This document shows positions 4,804 to 63,595 of a stretch of DNA of 64,000 nt, one piece after another. How positions within the stretch are numbered: the first letter of the stretch is position 1; every line of letters starts with the position of its first letter. The translations under genes and the position numbers were made by a program. A model generated the notes under the pieces. It had not been told where the DNA came from. It was given only the letters and a program-made list of their open reading frames with translations, and ran no database searches. The DNA comes from Phaeobacter italicus. Lineage in GTDB: Bacteria > Pseudomonadota > Alphaproteobacteria > Rhodobacterales > Rhodobacteraceae. The stretch spans positions 1 to 64,000 of the forward strand of contig NZ_CVRM01000004.1 in NCBI RefSeq assembly GCF_001258055.1, in the 5' to 3' direction.

Positions 4804-4863
4804 CGTTTTCGGGAAGGTGATTACCTTTGAATCTTGAGGTCCGACTTCGCCTTTGCTAGGAAT

Positions 4864-4877
4864 CGAACAACAATTAG
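4864..4877. promoter_or_regulatory. Degenerate copy of the island operator
   Basis: CGAACAACAATTAG, followed by AAAAA, matches 9 of the 12 defined positions of the palindrome CTAACANNTGTTAG found at eight other places in the window. It lies 25 nt upstream of the ATG at 4903, a position like that of the good sites. It is weak and could be chance. Confidence 0.3.
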
Positions 4878-4902
4878 AAAAACAGCAAAGTCGAAAGTGC
4901 AG

Positions 4903-7325: not shown

Positions 7326-7341
7326 TCTAACACCCGTTAGA
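7326..7341. promoter_or_regulatory. Operator A (palindrome) upstream of the SDR/transporter operon
   Basis: TCTAACACCCGTTAGA is an inverted repeat with 6-bp arms. Eleven of the 12 core positions agree with the island consensus CTAACANNTGTTAG. It is 42 nt upstream of the ATG at 7383, where a repressor would overlap a promoter. Confidence 0.7.
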
Positions 7342-23558: not shown

Positions 23559-23574
23559 TCTAACAATTGTTAGA
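23559..23574. promoter_or_regulatory. Operator C, perfect palindrome in a divergent promoter region
   Basis: TCTAACAATTGTTAGA is a perfect 16-bp inverted repeat matching the island consensus. It lies 37 nt from the CoA-transferase start at 23522 (minus) and 53 nt from the DUF35 gene start at 23627 (plus), so one bound repressor could silence both operons. Confidence 0.85.
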
Positions 23575-27219: not shown

Positions 27220-27235
27220 TCTAACATATGTTAGA
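27220..27235. promoter_or_regulatory. Operator D, perfect palindrome
   Basis: TCTAACATATGTTAGA is a perfect inverted repeat. It ends about 16 nt upstream of the ATG at 27251, closer than at most sites. A bound repressor would cover the ribosome-binding leader or the -10/+1 region of the operon 27251-32737. Confidence 0.85.
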
Positions 27236-32953: not shown

Positions 32954-33493
32954 TTAACCTGAGACATATCCGGCAGCCCTGAAGTAATTCCAGCACTCTT
33001 CTGGATCGTAGAGATCGCAGATTGATCCGATAGCGTCGAAGACCTCGGTGAAGCTTCTAGCCCCGATCCGTCGCAAGTGGGCTTTCAGCTTTGAATATGC
33101 CTGTTCGATGGGGTTCAAATCGGGCGAGTAAGGCGGCAGGTACAGAAACCAGCAGCCGTGGTCGCGCAGGGCCTGCGCGGCGTCCTTGTTGCGATGCGTC
33201 GCGAGGTTGTCGAGGATAACAACGGTTCCTGGTGCGATCTCTGGGACCAGCACTTGGCGTATGTAGGCGGCAAAGGCCGGGCCGCCCATCGCACCCTGTA
33301 TAACCCAAGGCGCGATCAGTGCATCCTGCGTCAGGCCCGCGATCAGTGTCTGCGTCCCCCAGCTTCCAAAGGGCGCGTCCATGGTCAGACGCTCGCCTCG
33401 TCTGGATCGGCCACGCAGGCGGGTCAGGTTCGTCTTCACTGCAGTTTCGTCAATAAAGACAACGCGGTCTGGCATCCGGGAGATGGTGGGCAA
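32954..33493 (-). CDS. IS630-family transposase, C-terminal frame (DDE catalytic part)
   Basis: Catalytic frame with the DDE triad visible: RVVFIDETAVKTN, VVILDNLATHRNK and YSPDLNPIEQAYSKLKAHL. The shown start is only the first ATG of the open frame; the natural product is probably the frameshift fusion with the upstream frame. No internal stop is seen, so the element may still be active. Confidence 0.88.
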   Translation of the reverse strand: MPTISRMPDRVVFIDETAVKTNLTRLRGRSRRGERLTMDAPFGSWGTQTLIAGLTQDALIAPWVIQGAMGGPAFAAYIRQVLVPEIAPGTVVILDNLATHRNKDAAQALRDHGCWFLYLPPYSPDLNPIEQAYSKLKAHLRRIGARSFTEVFDAIGSICDLYDPEECWNYFRAAGYVSG

Positions 33494-33525
33494 GCGATGC
33501 TTGAACCAATCGCCGCGCTGTTGCC

Positions 33526-33912
33526 TTACCTTGGCGCGACGGCGCTCGGTGGCAACCGGAGACTTTTTTTGTATGTGAACCCGAGCCGGGACAGCAGGTT
33601 GGAGATGGAAGAGTGATGCACTTGCACGCCCTCTGCCTCGGCCAGCGCGTCGCGTAGCTCGAAGAGGGTGATGTCGGGGTCTTGTGCAATCAACTCCTCA
33701 AGGAAAGTCTGATGCGGTGCCAGCTTGCCTTTGCCGCGCGGCGGTCCCTGCGGTGCGGGTTCCGCGTGACCCTTGGTCCTCACTTGGCGCGCCCATCGCG
33801 CACCTGTCGCAGGTGACAATTTCAGACGCAACGCCGCCGCACGCCCGCTTAACCCTTCGTCAATATATCTCTGAAACCGCGTCCTTAGTGCCGAAGGTAA
33901 AGGTGCTGACAT
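33526..33912 (-). CDS. IS630-family transposase, N-terminal frame (DNA-binding part)
   Basis: First transposase frame, with helix-turn-helix region LSGRAAALRLKLSPATGARWARQ and the segment VHHSSISNLLSRLGFTYKKS typical of IS630 OrfA. I start it at the ATG at 33912, behind GGAGG. Near its end the coding strand has seven A residues followed by G (complement of 33563-33570). A -1 slip there joins FTYKKS to PVATERRRAK and then to the catalytic frame, giving one protein of about 319 aa. Confidence 0.88.
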   Translation of the reverse strand: MSAPLPSALRTRFQRYIDEGLSGRAAALRLKLSPATGARWARQVRTKGHAEPAPQGPPRGKGKLAPHQTFLEELIAQDPDITLFELRDALAEAEGVQVHHSSISNLLSRLGFTYKKSLRLPPSAVAPR

Positions 33913-34040
33913 GATCCATCCTCCCAAACAGGATGAAACAAACCTGATGCCTTAAGGGAATCCCTCGCGATTCAGGTTCAATCAGAAATGCTTTAATTCA
34001 GAGGTTTGCCTGGTCTATTTACCAAGCCTCTCCGCAAAGC

Positions 34041-34054
34041 CTAACAGATGTTAG
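34041..34054. promoter_or_regulatory. Operator E, orphaned copy near the IS630 element
   Basis: CTAACAGATGTTAG, followed by AAAAAT, matches all 12 defined positions of the island consensus. It is downstream of the 3' end of the minus-strand operon (stop at 34097) and 46 bp from the IS630 end, so no intact gene starts beside it. It probably drove the gene now reduced to the remnant at 32809-32940. Confidence 0.75.
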
Positions 34055-34096
34055 AAAAATTGGTCAACAACTGAATCCGCTACCAAAGGAAACTGA

Positions 34097-37823: not shown

Positions 37824-38783
37824 TCAGCGTGACTTGCGGTATTTGTCCAACCCGCCGGTGTGCATGACCCGGCCCATGAGCGGCACACCGATGATCTCTT
37901 CTGCTTTGACCGCCGCTGCGATCAGCTTGTCCAGATCAATGCCGGTTTCGATGCCGAGCTCGTGACACAGGAACACTGCATCCTCGGTGCAGACATTTCC
38001 TGCGGCGCGCGCGTGGCCGTGGCCCGCGAAAGGACAGCCGCCAAGACCGGCGACGGAGCTTTCGAACATGTCCACGCCCATCGACAGGGCCGCATAAACG
38101 TTGGCGATCCCCAGCCCACGTGTGTCATGGATGTGCATACCGATGCGCGCCTCGGGCGCCAATTCGCGCAGGGCGCCGATCATCCGTTTGACCGCCTCGG
38201 GGTTTCCCCAACCCATGGTGTCGGCGATCACAAGGATCGGCACGGGGATGTCCTCTTCCTCGCACAGTTGGAGGATAAAGCGGAAATCGTCCAAGATGCG
38301 TTCTTGGGGGATGGGGCCCTCGAGGTTGCAGCCGAAGGCGGTCATCACATAGGCCGCGTCGACGGTATATCCCTCTTCCTTGTAAAGACGGACCCAGTCA
38401 CGTTGTTTTTCCCGCATCTCGGCCGAGGAACAATTGTTGTTCGATTGGGCGAATGCTTCGGAAGGATAGAACAGCAGACGCGGGTCGATATCGACCTCAT
38501 GCGCGGTCAGGGCCTTGCGAAACCCTTTGTCGTTCAGCCACAGCGATGTGTAGTTCACGCCCGGTTTGCGCTTGATACGCTGGAACAACTCGCCGGTGTC
38601 CGCCATCTGAGGAACGTATTTCGGGCTGACAAAGCTGCCGACCTGAATGCGTTTCAGACCGGTTTCGCTGAGCATGTCGATCAGTTCGATCCGCTCTTCG
38701 ACCGGATAGATCTTTTTTTCGATCTGGAATCCCTCGCGCGGGCCTTCTTCACGAAATTCGACGAATTTGGGAAAGTCGCTCAT
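37824..38783 (-). CDS. HMG-CoA lyase-like protein with an altered signature loop
   Basis: 319-aa TIM-barrel of the DRE/HMGL family. N-terminus EFREEGPREGFQ carries the metal-binding region (canonical RDGLQ becomes REGFQ). MHIHDTRGLGIANV supplies the HxH metal ligands. The signature SSVAGLGGCPF keeps the catalytic Cys, but is followed by AGHGHARAAGNVCTED, which is about four residues longer than in HMG-CoA lyase. The true substrate may be a larger 3-hydroxy-3-methyl-type dicarboxylyl-CoA. ATG at 38783 lies 4 nt after the carboxylase stop, behind GGAGTG; the longer frame is rejected. Confidence 0.85.
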   Translation of the reverse strand: MSDFPKFVEFREEGPREGFQIEKKIYPVEERIELIDMLSETGLKRIQVGSFVSPKYVPQMADTGELFQRIKRKPGVNYTSLWLNDKGFRKALTAHEVDIDPRLLFYPSEAFAQSNNNCSSAEMREKQRDWVRLYKEEGYTVDAAYVMTAFGCNLEGPIPQERILDDFRFILQLCEEEDIPVPILVIADTMGWGNPEAVKRMIGALRELAPEARIGMHIHDTRGLGIANVYAALSMGVDMFESSVAGLGGCPFAGHGHARAAGNVCTEDAVFLCHELGIETGIDLDKLIAAAVKAEEIIGVPLMGRVMHTGGLDKYRKSR

Positions 38784-38787
38784 TTCA

Positions 38788-40794
38788 TCACTCCTCGGAT
38801 GGCAGGATCTCGGCGATGACCTGGCCGCGATCGACCATGTCCCCATTCGAGACGGATATATTGCTGGCGATCCCGGCCGCGGCCGCCCGGATCGAGATTT
38901 CGAGTTTCATGGATTCCATGACCGCGACCACGTCGCCTTCGGCTACGCTCTGACCACCGGAGACCTTGATTTCGACAATCATGCCGGTCAGCGGAGAGGT
39001 CACGGCGCGATCCCCCGCGGCATCGCCGCCGGCAAAGGCAAGGGGCGCGGCGGGGCGGAAGACCAGGCGGCCTTCGGGCGTGTCCAGTTCGATCACGCCC
39101 GCGTGCAGACGTGCCTCGATCAGATGGACGGTGTCGCCTTCGCCGACACGCCAACAGCCCGGGGTCAGTTCACGTGCCGACAGTGTCAGCGCCTCGCCGT
39201 TTTCCGAATAGACGGTGTATCTGGCACCCGGTTTGACAGGGCCGATGCGCAGTTCTTCGGATACCTCGTCAGAATCGGTGAGCGTCACGCTTTGCCCTGC
39301 TTCCATCGCATCGCCGCCCAGGCCGAGCCGCCAGCCGGTAAAGGCATCACGGTTGGTCCAGGGATTGGCATCCGTATCGCCGCGCGAGGCGGCCACGAAC
39401 AGAATGGCGGCAACCGCTTTCCACAGATCAGGGCGAACGAGGGGGGACGCCTGTGTCAGCTCGGCCAACCGGCCGTCGATCCACCGTGTATGAACCTGCA
39501 TCCGTTCGAATTCAGGGTTTCGCGCCAGTGCCCTCAGAAAGGCGCGATTGGTCTCGACGCCTTCGACCGCGACATGATCAAGCGCCGTGGCCAGACGTGC
39601 CAATGCGGTTTCCCGGTCGGGCGCGTGCACGATCAGCTTGGCGATCATCGGGTCGTAATAAGGCGTGACCGCATCGCCTTCCTCGACGCCGCTGTCGATG
39701 CGCAGGCCCGACGGCAGGCTGAGCGTGGTCAAGGTGCCGGTCGACGGGGCGAATTGCATCGCCGGATCTTCGGCGTAAAGCCGCGCCTCGACCGCGTGGC
39801 CGTTGATCGTCAGATCGTCCTGCACCAATCCAAGGCCCGCGCCTTCGGCAATCCGCAGGTGAAGCGCGACAAGGTCCAGCCCGGTGATCGCTTCGGTGAC
39901 GGGATGTTCCACCTGAATGCGCGGGTTTACCTCAAGGAAGAAATACTCGTCCCCCGCGACCAGAAACTCGACCGTGCCCAGCCCGCGATAGTCCAGCGTT
40001 TCACCAAGGCGCACCGCGTCGCGCGCGATGTCGTCCATAAGCGTCCGGGGCAGACCCCAGGCCGGGGCTTCCTCGATGACCTTCTGGTGGCGGCGCTGAA
40101 GCGTGCAATCGCGTTCGAACAGATGCACCACATGGCCCTTGCCGTCACCTGCGATCTGCACTTCAACATGGCGCGCCTCGGGCAGGAAACGCTCCAACAG
40201 CAGCCCTTCGGAGCCGAAGGTGGATTTTGCTTCGCGCAGCGCGCCTTCGATGTCCTCGACCAGCGTGGTTTCGTCAGTGACGAGCCGTTGCCCTCGCCCA
40301 CCACCGCCGCCGACAGCCTTGAGCAGCACCGGCAGGCCCATTTGGCGCACCTCCTCTACAATCTGCTCGGGATCGGACCGCGCACCTTCGGCGCCCGAAA
40401 TCACCGGGACGCTGGCCGCCACGGCGGCCTCTTTGGCGCTGGCCTTGTCGCCGAAACGTTCAAGCGTTTCCGGCGTCGGCCCCATGAAGATCATGCCAGC
40501 GGCTTCGACCGAACGAGCAAAATCGGGGTTTTCGGCCAGAAAGCCATAACCGGGATGGATCGCATCCGCGCCCACTGATTGCGCAGCGGCAATCACCGCG
40601 TCGATTTTCAGATAGCTCTCGGATGCAGGTCCGGCGCCGATACAGACCGACCTGCCGATTTCGCGGACATGCAGGGCATTGGCGTCGGCCTGCGAATGCA
40701 CGCCGACAGGGGTGATCCCGCTGGCCCGCGCGGTGCGCGCGATCCGGCAGGCAATTTCACCGCGGTTGGCGATCAGAAGCGTTTTGATTTTCAC
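38788..40794 (-). CDS. Acyl-CoA carboxylase alpha subunit (biotin carboxylase + biotin carrier)
   Basis: 668-aa fused subunit like MccA/PccA/LiuD-type proteins. N-terminal ATP-grasp biotin carboxylase with MKIKTLLIANRGEIACRI, the glycine-rich loop KAVGGGGGRGQ and FLEVNPRIQVEHPVTE. Biotin attachment is at AVMESMKLEI, about 35 residues from the C-terminus. It carboxylates an acyl-CoA together with the beta subunit encoded immediately upstream. Substrate choice (methylcrotonyl, geranyl, propionyl or a novel acyl-CoA) lies in the beta subunit and cannot be read from this protein. Confidence 0.94.
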   Translation of the reverse strand: MKIKTLLIANRGEIACRIARTARASGITPVGVHSQADANALHVREIGRSVCIGAGPASESYLKIDAVIAAAQSVGADAIHPGYGFLAENPDFARSVEAAGMIFMGPTPETLERFGDKASAKEAAVAASVPVISGAEGARSDPEQIVEEVRQMGLPVLLKAVGGGGGRGQRLVTDETTLVEDIEGALREAKSTFGSEGLLLERFLPEARHVEVQIAGDGKGHVVHLFERDCTLQRRHQKVIEEAPAWGLPRTLMDDIARDAVRLGETLDYRGLGTVEFLVAGDEYFFLEVNPRIQVEHPVTEAITGLDLVALHLRIAEGAGLGLVQDDLTINGHAVEARLYAEDPAMQFAPSTGTLTTLSLPSGLRIDSGVEEGDAVTPYYDPMIAKLIVHAPDRETALARLATALDHVAVEGVETNRAFLRALARNPEFERMQVHTRWIDGRLAELTQASPLVRPDLWKAVAAILFVAASRGDTDANPWTNRDAFTGWRLGLGGDAMEAGQSVTLTDSDEVSEELRIGPVKPGARYTVYSENGEALTLSARELTPGCWRVGEGDTVHLIEARLHAGVIELDTPEGRLVFRPAAPLAFAGGDAAGDRAVTSPLTGMIVEIKVSGGQSVAEGDVVAVMESMKLEISIRAAAAGIASNISVSNGDMVDRGQVIAEILPSEE

Positions 40795-40804
40795 GGTTCG
40801 CTCC

Positions 40805-42412
40805 TCACATCCTGAACACGCCGAAGTTGGTATCGACCTTGGGTCTGCGCGATGTCACATCCAGCATCAGCGCCATGACGTCACGGGTCTCACAGGGTTC
40901 GATCACGCTGTCGATCCAAAGGTTGGACGCGAAATTATAGGCCCCCTGAAAATCCTCGTATTCCTTGCGGATCGGCGCCTTGAAGGCTTCCTCCTCCTCG
41001 GGGGTCCAGCTTTTGCCTTCGCGCTCGTTGATCTGGGCGCGGACCTGGGCCAGCACGCTTGCGGCCTGTTCCGGCCCCATGATCGCCGACCGTCCCGTCG
41101 GCCAGGCAAACATTGCGTCCGGCTGGAACGGGCGGCCCAGCATCGCCAGGTATCCGGCCCCGTAAGAGCCACCGGTGATGATTGTGAATTTCGGCACCCG
41201 GGCCGAAGACATGGCCGTGATCATCTTGGCGCCGGCCTTGGCAATGCCCATCTGCTCGACCTCGCGGCCCACCATGAAGCCGTTCACATCGGCCAGGAAC
41301 AGCAGCGGAATATCACGCTGGACGCAGAGATTGATGAAATGCGTCGCCTTCAGCGCGGCTTCGACGAAAAGCACGCCTGTATTGGCGATGATCCCGACCT
41401 CATGGCCGTGGATGCGCCCCCAGCCGGTCATGATCGTGTCGCCATAAAGCGGCTTGAATTCGTGAAAATCGCTGTCATCCACCAGCCGGGCGACGATCTC
41501 GCGGTTGTCGGTCGGCACCTTGGGGTCGCGGCTGACGAGACCATATATTTCCTCGACCGGATAGGCAGGTTCACGCGGCGTTTCCGGCGTCTTGCGGGGC
41601 AGGGGCTTTTCGCCCAGGTGTCGGACGATATCGCGGGTGATGGCCAAAGCATGGGCATCGTCCTCGGCCAGATGGTCGGTCACGCCGGAGACAGAACAAT
41701 GCATCTTGCCGCCGCCCAATGTTTCGGCATCCACTTTTTCGCCGGTCGCGGCAAAGGTCAGCTCTGGTCCGCCCAGGTACATGAAGCCCTGGCCGCGCAC
41801 GATGACCACCTCGTCGCAGAGCGCGGGGATATAGGCACCACCCGCGGTGCAGGGCCCCATGACCACGGCGATTTGCGGCACACCGTCACCCGACATGCCG
41901 ATCTGTTGGTGAAAGATGGACCCGAACTGGCCTTCGTCGGGGAAAAGGTTGGCTTGGTCGGGCAGGAAGGCCCCGCCGGAATCCACGAGCGTGATAACAG
42001 GCAGGCGGTTTTTCCAGGCGATCTTTTGTGCCCGGACATGTTTGCGGCAGGTGATCCCGAAATAGGTGCCGCCTTTCACTGTAGCATCGTTGGCGATGAT
42101 CATGCACTGGCGGCCTTCGATCACTCCGATACCGGTGATGATGCCGGCGCCGGGCGGAACACCCTTGTGCATGTTCAGTCCGGCCAGCTCGCCGAGTTCC
42201 AGAAAGGGGGTGCCCGGATCGATCAGCCGTTCGATCCGTTCGCGGGGCAGGATCTTGCCTTTTTCCACATGACGTTCGCGCGCCATTTCGGGGCCGCCGA
42301 CGCGCTGTGAGAGCCGGAGGGCATGCAGTTCATCGACCTTTTCGCGGTAAGACGCGTCGTTGGCGCGGAAGTCGTCCGACGCAGTGTCGAGAAGGGATTT
42401 CATTCTAGTCAT
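40805..42412 (-). CDS. Acyl-CoA carboxylase beta subunit (carboxyltransferase)
   Basis: 535-aa carboxyltransferase of the methylcrotonyl/geranyl/propionyl-CoA carboxylase family. Conserved segments: ERIERLIDPGTPFLELG, ITGIGVIEGRQCMIIANDATVKGGTYF, PDQANLFPDEGQFG and SYGAGYLAMLGRPFQPD. Length and the KGGTYF segment are closest to MCC-beta (LiuB) and geranyl-CoA carboxylase types, which act at the gamma-methyl of a 3-methyl-2-enoyl-CoA. Start overlaps the ligase stop by 4 bp. With an HMG-CoA-lyase-like gene downstream, the logic resembles leucine or acyclic-terpene degradation. Confidence 0.92.
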   Translation of the reverse strand: MTRMKSLLDTASDDFRANDASYREKVDELHALRLSQRVGGPEMARERHVEKGKILPRERIERLIDPGTPFLELGELAGLNMHKGVPPGAGIITGIGVIEGRQCMIIANDATVKGGTYFGITCRKHVRAQKIAWKNRLPVITLVDSGGAFLPDQANLFPDEGQFGSIFHQQIGMSGDGVPQIAVVMGPCTAGGAYIPALCDEVVIVRGQGFMYLGGPELTFAATGEKVDAETLGGGKMHCSVSGVTDHLAEDDAHALAITRDIVRHLGEKPLPRKTPETPREPAYPVEEIYGLVSRDPKVPTDNREIVARLVDDSDFHEFKPLYGDTIMTGWGRIHGHEVGIIANTGVLFVEAALKATHFINLCVQRDIPLLFLADVNGFMVGREVEQMGIAKAGAKMITAMSSARVPKFTIITGGSYGAGYLAMLGRPFQPDAMFAWPTGRSAIMGPEQAASVLAQVRAQINEREGKSWTPEEEEAFKAPIRKEYEDFQGAYNFASNLWIDSVIEPCETRDVMALMLDVTSRRPKVDTNFGVFRM

Positions 42413-46994: not shown

Positions 46995-47010
46995 TCTAAC
47001 AAATGTTAGA
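46995..47010. promoter_or_regulatory. Operator F in a divergent promoter region
   Basis: TCTAACAAATGTTAGA matches all defined consensus positions. It lies 41 nt from the AliB-like start at 46954 (minus) and 38 nt from the GTG at 47048 (plus), so it can control both the 11-gene operon and the dienoyl-CoA-reductase-like operon. Confidence 0.82.
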
Positions 47011-52628: not shown

Positions 52629-53333
52629 TCATTCGTCAATGACCAATCTTAGGCGGTCTTTGAGGCGCGTATCTTGTAGCGAAAGGTCAAAACGACGCGG
52701 AACGGACTGAGCGCGCAACGCGCCGGGCGGTTTGCCGGCGAAGACCCGGCAAGCGACGGACATATGGGATTGATCGCAATATCCGGCGTCCAGCGCCAGA
52801 TCGCTCAGCGGAAGGCTCTGTGACGCGAGCTGCCCAAGAGCCTGGCGAAAGCGCCGCGAGGCGGCAAGCCGCCGCCGCGACACGCCGGTTTCCGCCCGCA
52901 CCTTTCGACGTTCGGTCCGGTCGCTGTACGCTCCGGGTGGCGCGGCAAAGCCCATGCCTTTCGCGAGGCCGTCAAGCACTGCGATGAGCGCGGGCAGGTC
53001 ACCGTCCCCGATCTGAACCCGGGCCAGTTCTGCGGCCAGCATGTCCAGCCCTTTGGAGTCGGGTAAGTGCTTCGGTCGTGACGACAACCTCAGCCCGGCC
53101 ACGACACCATGGAATGGCCTTGGGCGGGGAGTGAAACCCGAGCGCGGTGGCGCCAGCGATACACGCGCCCCGCCGCTGTGGTCGCGCGTTACCGAAAGGG
53201 TAAAGAGGTCGGTTGCGAACCGCCCGCGTCCACCACCGCTCAGCACACCGGTATCGCGAAACACGAACAGATGATCGATCTCAGTGGCCGCTTCCTCAGG
53301 CGGCGCCAGTTCGAGATAAAGCGGCACCGCCAT
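52629..53333 (-). CDS. AraC-family transcriptional regulator
   Basis: About 234 aa, with a C-terminal double helix-turn-helix including LPLSDLALDAGYCDQSHMSVACRVFAGKPPGAL. The N-terminal part has HLFVFRDTGVLSGGGRGRF, like the small inducer-sensing domains of the family. ATG at 53333 follows the NmrA stop by 4 bp; longer frames overlap that gene. It probably controls the NmrA-type gene next to it and may be unrelated to the catabolic island. Confidence 0.85.
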   Translation of the reverse strand: MAVPLYLELAPPEEAATEIDHLFVFRDTGVLSGGGRGRFATDLFTLSVTRDHSGGARVSLAPPRSGFTPRPRPFHGVVAGLRLSSRPKHLPDSKGLDMLAAELARVQIGDGDLPALIAVLDGLAKGMGFAAPPGAYSDRTERRKVRAETGVSRRRLAASRRFRQALGQLASQSLPLSDLALDAGYCDQSHMSVACRVFAGKPPGALRAQSVPRRFDLSLQDTRLKDRLRLVIDE

Positions 53334-53337
53334 CAGG

Positions 53338-54192
53338 TTACTTGACGAAAGCATCCCGGTTCTCGGTGACGAAATCGGCAAATCGGCGCGCCGGGCGCTC
53401 CAGCACCTCGCTGACCGTGGTCTCGATGCCGGCTAGGTAGCCCCTGGGCGCGATAGAGGCCAGTTCGACCATGGCCCCGGCGACCTCGTCCTGCATTCCG
53501 CCGGCCACCATGCCCGCCCTGGCATCCTCGGCCGAAAGGGACACGCACGACACTGTTCGTCCCGTCACCCCGGACAGAAGGGCCGCGATGTCATCCCCTG
53601 CAAGAGCTTCGGGCCCGGTCAGACCAAGAGCCTTGCCTTCGTACCCCGGAGCGGTCAGCGCCTCGGCGGCGACATCCGCGATGTCGCGAGCGTCGATCCA
53701 GGCCACGGGTCCGCCCAGGTCGTCATAGTACACGGCGTCCTTTGCAATGTTGCCGGCCTGCCACAGCAGGTTCTGCATGAAATAGGTCGGCTGGACAAAA
53801 GTCCAGTCAAGGCTGCTTTGCTTCAGCAGTTCCTGGGTTTCGGAATGCCACTTTCCAAAGGTCAGCCCCGCCTTGGGCGACGCGCCAAGCCCCGTGGCCA
53901 CAACGATATGGCGCACGCCCGCGGCCTTGGCCGCCTCGATCACGTTCGCCTTCCACTGACGCATGTCCAGATGGGCAGGCGTGACCAGGTATATCTTTTC
54001 CGCCCCGTCACAGGCCCGCGCCAGCGCGGCAGGGTCCGTGAAATCCGCTGCTACCGCCTCGCATCCTTTGGCTTTTAGCGCGTCTAACTTGAAGGGGTCG
54101 CTGGTGACAGCGCGCACGGTCGCGCCTTTTGCCATAAGCGTATCGACGAGGGGCGCGCCGGTGTTGCCCGTGGCTCCGAAAACAGTAATCAT
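53338..54192 (-). CDS. NmrA/QorB-like NAD(P)-binding oxidoreductase or sensor
   Basis: 284-aa atypical SDR. N-terminus MITVFGATGNTGAPLVD is the GxxGxxG cofactor loop; the Tyr-x3-Lys active site is not evident. Similar to quinone oxidoreductase 2 and NmrA-like redox sensors. The start overlaps the stop of the Acs-like gene by 4 bp, and the AraC-family gene follows closely downstream. Role in the pathway is unclear. Confidence 0.85.
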   Translation of the reverse strand: MITVFGATGNTGAPLVDTLMAKGATVRAVTSDPFKLDALKAKGCEAVAADFTDPAALARACDGAEKIYLVTPAHLDMRQWKANVIEAAKAAGVRHIVVATGLGASPKAGLTFGKWHSETQELLKQSSLDWTFVQPTYFMQNLLWQAGNIAKDAVYYDDLGGPVAWIDARDIADVAAEALTAPGYEGKALGLTGPEALAGDDIAALLSGVTGRTVSCVSLSAEDARAGMVAGGMQDEVAGAMVELASIAPRGYLAGIETTVSEVLERPARRFADFVTENRDAFVK

Positions 54193-56239: not shown

Positions 56240-57001
56240 TTAACCGTGCATGGACAGGCCGCCCGAAACCGAAATCACCTGGCCGGTAATGAACCCTGCG
56301 TCGTCCGACGACAGGAAGCAGATGATGCCAGGGTAATCCGTCGGCTGCGCAAGACGCTTCATCGGAATCGCCCGCTTGAGACCTTCGGCGATCTTTTGAC
56401 CGGCCTCGCCTTCGGCAACCTGAGCGAACAGCGGCGTATCGGTCGGGCCGGGGGCGACCGCATTCAATTGAATACCTTTACGCGCCAGTTCACGCGCTAC
56501 GGTTTTGGTGAACGAGATGATGCCACCCTTGCAGGCCGAATACACGGCTTCGCCGGATGATCCGACGCGTCCGGCGTCGGACGCGATGTTGACCACACGG
56601 CCGCCACCGTTCTTGACCATGCCCGGAAGCACCGCGTGATGCATATTCAGCGGACCGTAAAGATTGATGTCGATGACCTTCTTCCAAAGGTCGGGATCGG
56701 TGTCGAGGAACGGTTTGATCACGTCCCAGCCCGCGTTGTTCACCAGCACATCAATCGGTCCGCCGGATTCGAACTCGGCAACGGCGCTGTCGACCTGGGC
56801 ACGATCGGTAATATCCGCCTGAAATGCCGTCGCTTTTCCGCCGGATTCAGTGATTAGTTTGGCGGTTTCATCCGCTCCGGCTTTGTTCAGATCGAAAACG
56901 GCGACTTCGGCACCCTCCGCGCCGAACCGTTCGCAAACCGCTCGGCCAATGCCGCTCCCACCGCCGGTCACAACGACCCGTTTTCCACTCAACCCTCGCA
57001 T
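56240..57001 (-). CDS. SDR similar to 2-hydroxycyclohexanecarboxyl-CoA dehydrogenase (BadH-like)
   Basis: 253-aa short-chain dehydrogenase. Cofactor loop TGGGSGIGRAVCERF, VFDLNKAGADE, VNNAGWDVIKPF, NMHHAVLPGMV, SDAGRVGSSGEAVYSACKGG (Tyr-x3-Lys) and CFLSSDDAGFITGQVISVSGG. The blocks VNNAGWDV, MHHAVLPGMV and RVGSSGEAVY recall BadH of Rhodopseudomonas palustris, which oxidises a ring hydroxyl of an alicyclic CoA ester. The gene is transcribed away from the double-TetR gene, with operator G between. It is the most direct hint of a ring-containing substrate. Identity to BadH is judged from memory. Confidence 0.82.
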   Translation of the reverse strand: MRGLSGKRVVVTGGGSGIGRAVCERFGAEGAEVAVFDLNKAGADETAKLITESGGKATAFQADITDRAQVDSAVAEFESGGPIDVLVNNAGWDVIKPFLDTDPDLWKKVIDINLYGPLNMHHAVLPGMVKNGGGRVVNIASDAGRVGSSGEAVYSACKGGIISFTKTVARELARKGIQLNAVAPGPTDTPLFAQVAEGEAGQKIAEGLKRAIPMKRLAQPTDYPGIICFLSSDDAGFITGQVISVSGGLSMHG

Positions 57002-57065
57002 GTGGAGGTCCTCCTCTTCCGTTGCACCTTGAAAAGAGTTTGATTCGACACTCTCTCCGATGTAT

Positions 57066-57081
57066 TCTAACAGTTGTTAGA
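57066..57081. promoter_or_regulatory. Operator G, next to the double-TetR gene
   Basis: TCTAACAGTTGTTAGA matches the consensus at all defined positions. It ends 10 nt before the ATG at 57091 and is 65 nt from the BadH-like start at 57001. This position implies negative autoregulation of the regulator and control of the divergent SDR. Confidence 0.85.
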
Positions 57082-57090
57082 TTTTTTGCA

Positions 57091-58491
57091 ATGGACAGCC
57101 TCATCTACGACAAGTATCGACAATGGATGGCACGACAGATTGAAGATACCAGGATAGTGAATGACGATCTAAGCAAGTCGGAGAGGACCCGCGAAGCCAT
57201 ACTCGCTGCGGCTGCGCGACTTTTTCGGTATGAAGGCTATCACGCAACGACTATGCGCGACATCGCGCAGGAAGCTGGCATTGAGGCCGGCAGCATTTAT
57301 TATCATTTTCAATCCAAGGACCAGATGCTGTGCGAAGTTCTCGATCTTGGCGTCCGTCAACTATATCAGGCGGTCAGTGAAATCGTTCGGTCGGCACCGA
57401 CAAGTTCGGAGGATTTTCGCAAGACTTTCAGACTGCTGATTGAAACACACCTTACATACCTATTGACCGACAGTGACTTTACGTCAGCCAATATTCGTAA
57501 CTATCCGATGTTGTCGGACGAAACACGCGCCCCGCATCGCGAATTGCGTGCATCATATGCGGATGCCTGGGGCAAATTCCTGAATGACGCCAAACGCGCC
57601 GGCCACCTTCGAAGCGACATATCCACTGCTGTGATCCGCCAGTTCATCCTAAGTGCCATGAACTGGACCGTAGAATGGTACGATGTCGACAAGTATCCGG
57701 TGCGCATCCTCGCGGAACGAATGTGTAAGCTGATACTTGACGGAATGTGTCCACATCGCAAGGCGGGTACCGAAGGCTTGAAGCTGTGCCCCGCCACTCC
57801 CGCCAAAACCCCGGATCCCGACGGCAAGGCGGCTAAGACCCGTGCAGAAATTCTAAAGGCCGCAGCGCGCGTTCTGAGGGACAATGGCTACAAGGCGACC
57901 ACGCTGAGAAAGATCGCGGAAGAAGCGGACATGAAAGCGGGAAGCGTCTATTACCATTTCAACTCCAAAGAAGCGATCGTTGACGAAGTTCTAAACGCCG
58001 GACTGAGAGACTTGCTATCAGGTGTCGAAGCCGCCGTTCGGAAATTCGATGCCCCGTACGATCATCACGCCAGGATAGCGACTGCAATCTGGGCGCACCT
58101 GGATTTCCTCTTCAAGGCAAGCGAATTCACCTCGGCGAATATCAGAAGCTATGGAATGCTCCCCAATCATTTCAGGGAGAGGCAAAGGGGTATTCGCCAT
58201 GAATATGGAAAACTCTGGGATCGGATACTCCGTGAAGCTCAGGACGACGGTGCCATACGGTCGGATATCAAGATCGTCCCCTTGCGCCAGGTGATGTTGG
58301 GCGCTTTGAACTGGACGGTGGAATGGTTCGACCCGAACAAGGCAGGAGTGGAAGGATATCTATCACTGCCTGAATTCTCCAGCATGCTCATCAATCTGTT
58401 ACTGGAAGGAATTTGTAACCGGGAAGCGGCCCCGTCCACAGGACAAGGTAGCCCAGAAAGCGGTTGCCCCGGTCAGACCAGAAGGAAGTGA
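57091..58491 (+). CDS. Single-chain double TetR regulator (two full TetR units in tandem)
   Basis: 466 aa, over twice the usual TetR length. Unit 1 has an HTH at about 29-80 (ERTREAILAAAARLF, then AGSIYYHFQSKDQM). Unit 2 has one at about 245-297 (KTRAEILKAAARVL, then AGSVYYHFNSKEAI). The ligand domains also repeat: TSANIRNYPML/TSANIRSYGML and NWTVEWYDVDK/NWTVEWFDPNK, with a constant period of 216-217 residues. This is therefore an internal gene duplication, and one chain could bind a palindrome as a pseudo-dimer. The start is uncertain: ATG 57091 lacks a clear ribosome site, and ATG 57127 or GTG 57157 are alternatives. It is the probable repressor acting at operators A-H; an acyl-CoA ligand is inferred from the regulon. 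Its 3' end overlaps the convergent thioesterase by 19 bp. Confidence 0.9.
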   Translation: MDSLIYDKYRQWMARQIEDTRIVNDDLSKSERTREAILAAAARLFRYEGYHATTMRDIAQEAGIEAGSIYYHFQSKDQMLCEVLDLGVRQLYQAVSEIVRSAPTSSEDFRKTFRLLIETHLTYLLTDSDFTSANIRNYPMLSDETRAPHRELRASYADAWGKFLNDAKRAGHLRSDISTAVIRQFILSAMNWTVEWYDVDKYPVRILAERMCKLILDGMCPHRKAGTEGLKLCPATPAKTPDPDGKAAKTRAEILKAAARVLRDNGYKATTLRKIAEEADMKAGSVYYHFNSKEAIVDEVLNAGLRDLLSGVEAAVRKFDAPYDHHARIATAIWAHLDFLFKASEFTSANIRSYGMLPNHFRERQRGIRHEYGKLWDRILREAQDDGAIRSDIKIVPLRQVMLGALNWTVEWFDPNKAGVEGYLSLPEFSSMLINLLLEGICNREAAPSTGQGSPESGCPGQTRRK

Positions 58492-63456: not shown

Positions 63457-63498
63457 ATAATCCTCCCGCAAAATGTCGTCCGCAGTGTTGACCAAAAT

Positions 63499-63512
63499 CA
63501 AACACATGTTAG
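63499..63512. promoter_or_regulatory. Operator H in a divergent promoter region
   Basis: CAAACACATGTTAG, followed by AAAATAG, matches 11 of 12 defined consensus positions. It is 42 nt from the ACAD start at 63456 (minus) and 83 nt from the crotonase start at 63596 (plus), again a shared divergent site. Confidence 0.7.
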
Positions 63513-63595
63513 AAAATAGATCAAGCCAAGCTTTTGGCGACCTGACGTTAGAAAGCGCGGTGGTCAGAATAGAATACAGGGGGGGAGCTTCGGAA

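Follow-up and report, generated by a model that had tools for sequence, protein, structure and literature searches.

The double TetR protein encoded in the window (the whole stretch of 64,000 nucleotides analyzed here) is probably a single-chain repressor, in which one polypeptide takes the place of the usual homodimer on the palindrome TCTAACN4GTTAGA; this reading draws on sequence comparisons and on a predicted structure. In the scheme that we propose, an ancestral homodimeric TetR regulator of an acyl-CoA catabolic island would have undergone tandem duplication and then fusion, and its two units would now pair within the chain through their own four-helix bundle, like the two chains of a TetR homodimer. 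The two near-identical recognition helices would enter the two halves of one 16-bp palindrome, with one chain per operator. The repressed targets would be the gene itself, the divergent SDR group and about six further promoter regions of the island, and binding of an acyl-CoA of the pathway to one or both pockets would cause the repressor to leave the DNA. Binding, its stoichiometry, repression and induction by acyl-CoA are the steps of this scheme that we infer.

Two TetR units in one open frame

The initial annotation described two complete TetR units in one chain, with shared sequence blocks, and this was confirmed. The segment 57091–58491 (+ strand) is one open frame of 466 amino acids with two full TetR units inside, and Pfam finds TetR_N twice and TetR_C_24 twice in the whole protein, above the gathering cut-offs, which places it in the TetR family. 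Units 1 and 2 align with 41% identity (88 of 213 columns, E 2e-52), far beyond chance, and the blocks AGS(I/V)YYHF, TSANIR and NWTVEW each occur in both. Against the model for ScbR-type autoregulator-binding factors (NCBIfam NF041196) the single units score 85 and 79.6, below the curated cut-off of 150, which the whole protein passes (160.5) merely through the summing of its two units.

The gene had been delimited as 57091–58491; the single open frame stands, but the start is probably ATG 57127 (454 amino acids). Upstream of 57091 the frame stays open as far as a TTG at 57022. We surveyed the start in 84 double TetR loci, window included, 70 of which could be scored (nine lacked the HTH motif used by the script and five an operator matching at least 11/12). 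In 19 of the 70 a stop codon in frame separates the operator from the first HTH, and in L014, L037, L063, L064 and L098 it stands just 5' of the position matching 57127; moreover, a methionine is found at or near the equivalent of 57127 in most scored rows, L049 being one exception. It is because of these stops and of this methionine that ATG 57127 is the likely start. All 70 scored loci have the HTH motif 103–107 bp beyond the end of the operator. The features of the gene and of its divergent neighbor are as follows.

56240..57001, − strand: divergent SDR oxidoreductase, first gene of the leftward group, putatively controlled from the same gap
57127..58491, + strand: double TetR gene, likely start ATG 57127 (454 aa), open from 57091 (466 aa) and TTG 57022
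57199..57336, + strand: unit 1 HTH, TetR_N, residues 37–82 of the 466-aa form (Pfam)
57427..57744, + strand: unit 1 ligand/dimerisation domain, TetR_C_24, residues 113–218 (Pfam)
57748..57834, + strand: inter-unit linker, 29 residues (alignment of doubles)
57850..57987, + strand: unit 2 HTH, approximate limits from the alignment to unit 1
58063..58410, + strand: unit 2 ligand/dimerisation domain, approximate limits (Pfam, unit alignment and model)

The double TetR gene also overlaps tail to tail, by 19 bp (58473–58491), with a gene for a PaaI-type thioesterase on the opposite strand.

That an indel or an assembly error fused two separate TetR genes, a concern raised in the initial annotation, is refuted by the relatives. 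A scan of species genomes gave 139 relatives, and in all of the best 80, which were kept (a single metagenome bin accounts for two of them), both units lie in one stop-to-stop ORF. Likewise, 37 of the 60 plasmid matches listed are in one piece over at least 87% of the query, three of the 37 being Rhodococcus sequences at 30% identity. A triple TetR, considered for L080, L081, L083 and L084, was rejected: in L080 and L081, on reading, a double TetR precedes a distinct single TetR, and no ORF with three TetR units came up in the scripted survey of the kept relatives.

Fold, linker and conservation of the two units

Structure prediction of the monomer, one of the checks proposed earlier, was carried out with AlphaFold2 using 38 natural sequences, and the single-chain model has a mean pLDDT of 83.8 and a pTM of 0.82. 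The two units of the chain form one omega-shaped pseudo-dimer in this predicted model, with the caveat that AlphaFold2 may pair linked homologues from its knowledge of TetR homodimers. The top Foldseek match is Mce3R (9b7y_A), over both units (E 5.5e-10, 421 columns, TM 0.64 by query and 0.74 by target); the rmsd is 6.4 Å, and thus the halves are not placed identically. Every single TetR ranks below Mce3R, the best of them with E 1.5e-6 and a TM by query of 0.37. A family search for tandem TetR proteins with the same linker, also suggested at the outset, found 28–30 linker residues in 38 of 38 aligned doubles. The linker varies in sequence while its length is constant, as expected of a tether.

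The mean frequency of the major residue in the HTH is 0.81 for unit 1 and 0.82 for unit 2, and the recognition helices of the two units are nearly the same; equally conserved HTHs with near-identical recognition helices are what a symmetric palindrome needs. Identity between the units of one chain is 57% for the HTH and 39% for the ligand domain. Were the chains instead to pair in the classical manner, through unit 1 (or unit 2) only, the other unit would be a ligand sensor or a leftover, and the slightly unequal constraint on the ligand domains (0.778 in unit 2 vs 0.742 in unit 1) might be read in this way. We consider such a use of one unit very unlikely, however, given the equal conservation of the HTHs, the fit of the predicted model to Mce3R across both units and the preserved length of the linker.

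A palindromic candidate operator confined to the island

The palindrome was read by direct scan of the gap 5' of the double TetR gene, a repeat finder run on this promoter gap having given no output. Its existence had been claimed before, and is borne out by scans of the window and of the whole genome. The window contains the following sites, which are listed without a strand.

57066..57081: candidate operator TCTAACAGTTGTTAGA, exact, in the divergent gap between the SDR gene (−) and the double TetR gene (+)
7326..7341: candidate operator TCTAACACCCGTTAGA, exact, before SDR, Liv transporter and CoA ligase genes
23559..23574: candidate operator TCTAACAATTGTTAGA, exact, between a CaiB gene (−) and a thiolase gene (+)
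27220..27235: candidate operator TCTAACATATGTTAGA, exact, 5' of ORF 27251 (+), which has no Pfam match
46995..47010: candidate operator TCTAACAAATGTTAGA, exact, between an acyl-CoA dehydrogenase gene (−) and a dienoyl-CoA reductase-like gene (+)
34040..34055: candidate operator CCTAACAGATGTTAGA, near match (11/12), no obvious target gene
63498..63513: candidate operator TCAAACACATGTTAGA, near match (11/12), between an acyl-CoA dehydrogenase gene (−) and an enoyl-CoA hydratase gene (+)
4863..4878: weak operator-like site TCGAACAACAATTAGA (10/12), near the start of a CaiB gene, absent from the genome-wide matches

On sequence criteria, then, the gene has a palindromic operator nearby, as a TetR family member should. 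The operator is separated by 45 bp from ATG 57127 and overlaps a sigma70-like promoter at 57091..57064 on the − strand (a match to the consensus only), an overlap that fits repression by occlusion. Between 32737 and the site at 34040, ORFs that by eye resemble pieces of an IS-type transposase occupy 32954–33927. The operator at 34040 may have been cut off from its target by an insertion.

In the whole genome (4.05 Mb), TCTAACANNTGTTAGA with up to two mismatches occurs at nine places, all of them in C4:7326–70719 and so within 63 kb, vs ten places for a reversed control in the same genome. The count is no larger than that of the control, and it is therefore the clustering, and not the number, that constitutes the evidence; as the motif was read from the window, its own genome is not independent evidence. 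Among 100 genomes of the family, the three with the gene have five, four and four exact copies, and the exact palindrome is absent from 94 of the 97 that lack the gene and occurs once in each of the other three (Fisher p 6e-6 for the co-occurrence of gene and palindrome, the own genome having defined the motif). In eight genomes of the class that carry relatives, the palindrome with one mismatch is rarer than the reversed control in seven. Moreover, a site matching at least 11/12 lies near the start in 79 of the 83 double loci other than the window, against a maximum of one for 89 permuted arms; the 83 loci are not independent, many being near copies, and when thinned to less than 85% identity 25 of 28 loci (window included) have such a site. 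The four loci without a near-start operator are L067, at a contig edge, L078, with an exact site about 2.5 kb away, L099, with only a 10/12 match, and L122, with none.

The island encodes a second, single TetR at C4:72994–73620 (L126:16995–17621), with a variant palindrome, CCTAACAGGCGTTAGT, upstream. Conceivably the operators serve mainly this protein, which is 38% identical to unit 2 and has this related palindrome before its own gene, while the double TetR has its targets elsewhere. We find this quite improbable, since the site of the second TetR is a variant with different outer bases, which is also found before relatives in L052, L067 and L080, and since, of six genomes searched, only G000 and G044 have close copies of the protein (at least 75% identity), whereas G061, G363, G439 and G156 lack a close copy and yet have the exact palindrome. 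The 79 of 83 loci with the palindrome at the double gene's own promoter argue in the same direction. The related idea that fusion insulates the regulator, by barring mixed dimers with the second TetR, was dropped as unsupported, since, of five genomes with a double that were searched, G000 and G044 have close copies of the second TetR and G061, G363 and G439 have none.

Two operator-like sites, at C4:70622 (two mismatches) and C4:70704 (one mismatch), lie about 82 bp apart in one gap, and no other two of the nine genome-wide places are so close together. Two chains, paired through another face and with four HTHs, could form a clamp that bridges two operators and loops the DNA, an arrangement compatible with the intramolecular pseudo-dimer. 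For Mce3R, a C2 homodimer with each chain on its own duplex is described and looping is proposed by the authors (PMC11667970), and the island has several operators, this pair included. On the other hand, one palindrome wants only two HTHs, both of which the fused chain provides, an unfused relative at the same palindrome requires no bridging, and the operators of the window are solitary, one per gap. We hold such a dimer of doubles to be possible but doubtful.

Fused and unfused relatives

Single-unit TetRs in general act as homodimers (PMC11667970), and most single-unit relatives of the protein have related palindromes. Of 31 such relatives, 23 have an upstream site matching at least 10/12, 10 at least 11/12 and four 12/12; 89 permuted arms scored at 10/12 upstream of the same 31 averaged 0.45 and reached nine at most. 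No upstream site of at least 10/12 was found in the other eight of the 31. In a related island (L134, genome G156), a single-unit TetR (L100), 52% identical to unit 2 and 50% to unit 1, is divergent from an SDR gene whose product is 75% identical to the SDR of the window, and TCTAACGTGTGTTAGA lies in between, with two more near-palindromes within about 4 kb. Ten of 11 proteins compared from this island match the window's contig, in a partly rearranged order, and the nine matches other than TetR range from 63 to 85% (SDR 75%, acyl-CoA dehydrogenase 84%, enoyl-CoA hydratase 85%, LivH 76%, LivM 71%). Judged by these comparisons, a one-unit TetR in G156 takes the slot and the palindrome that belong to a fused TetR here. 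The initial suggestion of an intramolecular pseudo-dimer on a palindrome thus gains indirect support from the equal HTHs, the linker, the predicted fold and the palindromes of the unfused relatives.

When 28 doubles and 30 singles are placed in one tree, the copies of unit 1 form a clade (support 100/92), as do those of unit 2 (100/99), and both clades share a single clade (100/99) with two singles, L100 and L123. This topology is best read as one old tandem duplication and fusion, the exact placement of L100 and L123 within the clade being ambiguous. The most diverged double (42%) is L122, at 8142–9473 of L136 (G439:C5). No TCTAACN4GTTAGA site is found near its start, and its neighbors are a DctM transporter, TauD and an amidohydrolase, with acyl-CoA dehydrogenase domains a few kb away. 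A changed function and operator are likely for this protein, for which we do not claim the pseudo-dimer model.

The island and its spread

Around the operators lie genes for acyl-CoA dehydrogenases, enoyl-CoA hydratases, SDRs, CoA ligases and CaiB transferases, as well as for a Liv-type ABC transporter, ETF, a thiolase, and HMG-CoA lyase together with sets of acyl-CoA carboxylase; the annotation of a matching island on a Roseibium plasmid includes an AtuA-family protein. Together, this gene set and the AtuA-family protein of the Roseibium island point to a branched or isoprenoid-like acid as the substrate. Carboxyltransferase and biotin carboxylase genes at 37824–42412, C4:64403–69797 and C4:73559–75226 seemingly form three acyl-CoA carboxylase sets, and an AtuA-like protein and HMG-CoA lyase are encoded in the same island. 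An AraC-type (HTH_18) regulator is encoded at 52629–53381, within the leftward gene group that starts at the divergent SDR.

The double TetR had been called the likely master regulator of the island. A role across the island is in keeping with the confinement of the near-matches to it and with the co-occurrence of gene and palindrome, but "master" is too strong, because the island also has the single TetR with its variant palindrome and the AraC-type regulator.

The distribution of the gene is patchy. Three of the 100 family genomes have it at E 1e-50, and it is missing from the one further member of the genus whose genome was searched. In the class, 25 of 385 genomes have a match at 1e-30 or better, and among the matches listed full-length doubles occur in G000, G363 and G439 (two copies), the rest being single units. 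Matches occur in 69 plasmid records (19 conjugative, 13 mobilizable and 37 non-mobilizable), 58 of them covering at least 80% of the query, a figure that is not a count of doubles, as single TetRs matched by both halves are joined (e.g., H65–H74). The DNA around the gene is about 90–92% identical to the window over about 80–100% of 17-kb loci in several genera, including Shimia, Maritimibacter, Ruegeria and Sulfitobacter. Closely similar flanks across genera and the absence of the gene from the searched genome of the same genus make it very probable that the island is mobile.

Comparison with known systems

The initial annotation knew of no characterized example, which is incorrect: Mce3R of Mycobacterium tuberculosis is a characterized double TetR with a solved structure and a lipid regulon (PMC11667970). 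In its structure, M1 and M2 of one chain form a four-helix bundle bound to one operator (PMC11667970), its gene is divergent from the target operon and autoregulated (PMC11667970; PMC3511530), and a prediction of 204 Mce3R-like proteins in actinomycetes is mentioned (PMC11667970). The protein studied here resembles Mce3R in having two TetR units per chain, with Mce3R as its best fold match over both, and in its link to an acyl-CoA island, Mce3R regulating lipid-metabolism genes. However, the sites of Mce3R are asymmetric and of 25 bp (PMC11667970), rather than a symmetric 16-bp palindrome as predicted here, and its two halves reportedly resemble different TetR subgroups (PMC11667970), whereas here the units are sisters with nearly the same recognition helix. 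The best sequence matches to Mce3R, which is in none of our trees, are crossed (unit 1 to M2 and unit 2 to M1). Searches of the literature on tandem, fused or single-chain TetR proteins returned, among the matches listed, only Mce3R and engineered Tet proteins as relevant; GplR1 is not called a double TetR in the available text of PMC12455991. Like the double TetR, the engineered sc-rtTA consists of two TetR moieties in head-to-tail order with a flexible linker between them (PMC1797012), and it is described as folding intramolecularly, its molecules being said not to dimerise with each other (PMC1797012); sc-rtTA is man-made from Tn10 TetR, whereas the present double is natural, with halves diverged to 41% identity.

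The single-unit acyl-CoA TetRs FadR of Bacillus, KstR2 and AibR have the same fold per unit. FadR of Bacillus and AibR have one unit per chain and are homodimers. KstR2 also has one unit per chain and is a homodimer (PMC11667970), in contrast to the two units of the double TetR.

A second natural double, of 440 amino acids, is encoded on plasmid pRB98 of Rhodococcus oxybenzonivorans (L128:5971–7293). As here, acyl-CoA genes lie beside it, the gene being divergent from genes for CaiB, acyl-CoA dehydrogenase and HMG-CoA lyase, but it is only about 30% identical to the double described here. Its halves group together (100/85), apart from the alphaproteobacterial units, in a tree with some long branches, and a single clade of all unit 1 copies, pRB98 included, is rejected (p-AU 1.8e-4). 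The tree with the pRB98 double thus suggests at least two fusions within this group of TetR proteins. No TCTAACN4GTTAGA site of at least 10/12 lies within 400 bp 5' of the start of the pRB98 gene; candidate operators for it are palindromes such as CCTAATCCAGATTAGG and CGGCATGTACACATGCCG, which lie 283 and 155 bp upstream, respectively.

A possible route from homodimer to single chain

The concept of a double TetR is already known from Mce3R, and what appears new here is a double TetR that would read a palindrome and whose unfused counterpart still exists. These findings bear on the question of why a homodimeric repressor ever turns into a single chain. In its most far-reaching form, which we put forward as rather unlikely in its entirety, the conversion from homodimer to single chain, with both states still alive, would have let the two ligand pockets drift apart with the recognition helices still tied to the palindrome, two different acyl-CoA signals would be integrated by one chain (as an AND or OR gate) for a mobile island, and a pairing like that of Mce3R may loop operators. 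The pair at C4:70622 and C4:70704 would be the natural place for cooperative binding or looping. Since the Rhodococcus double has similar neighbors and yet lies apart in the tree, repeated selection for fusion among the regulators of acyl-CoA islands is suggested. Finally, because fused and unfused forms stand beside the same palindrome in related islands, one can measure directly how fusion alters affinity, cooperativity and ligand logic.
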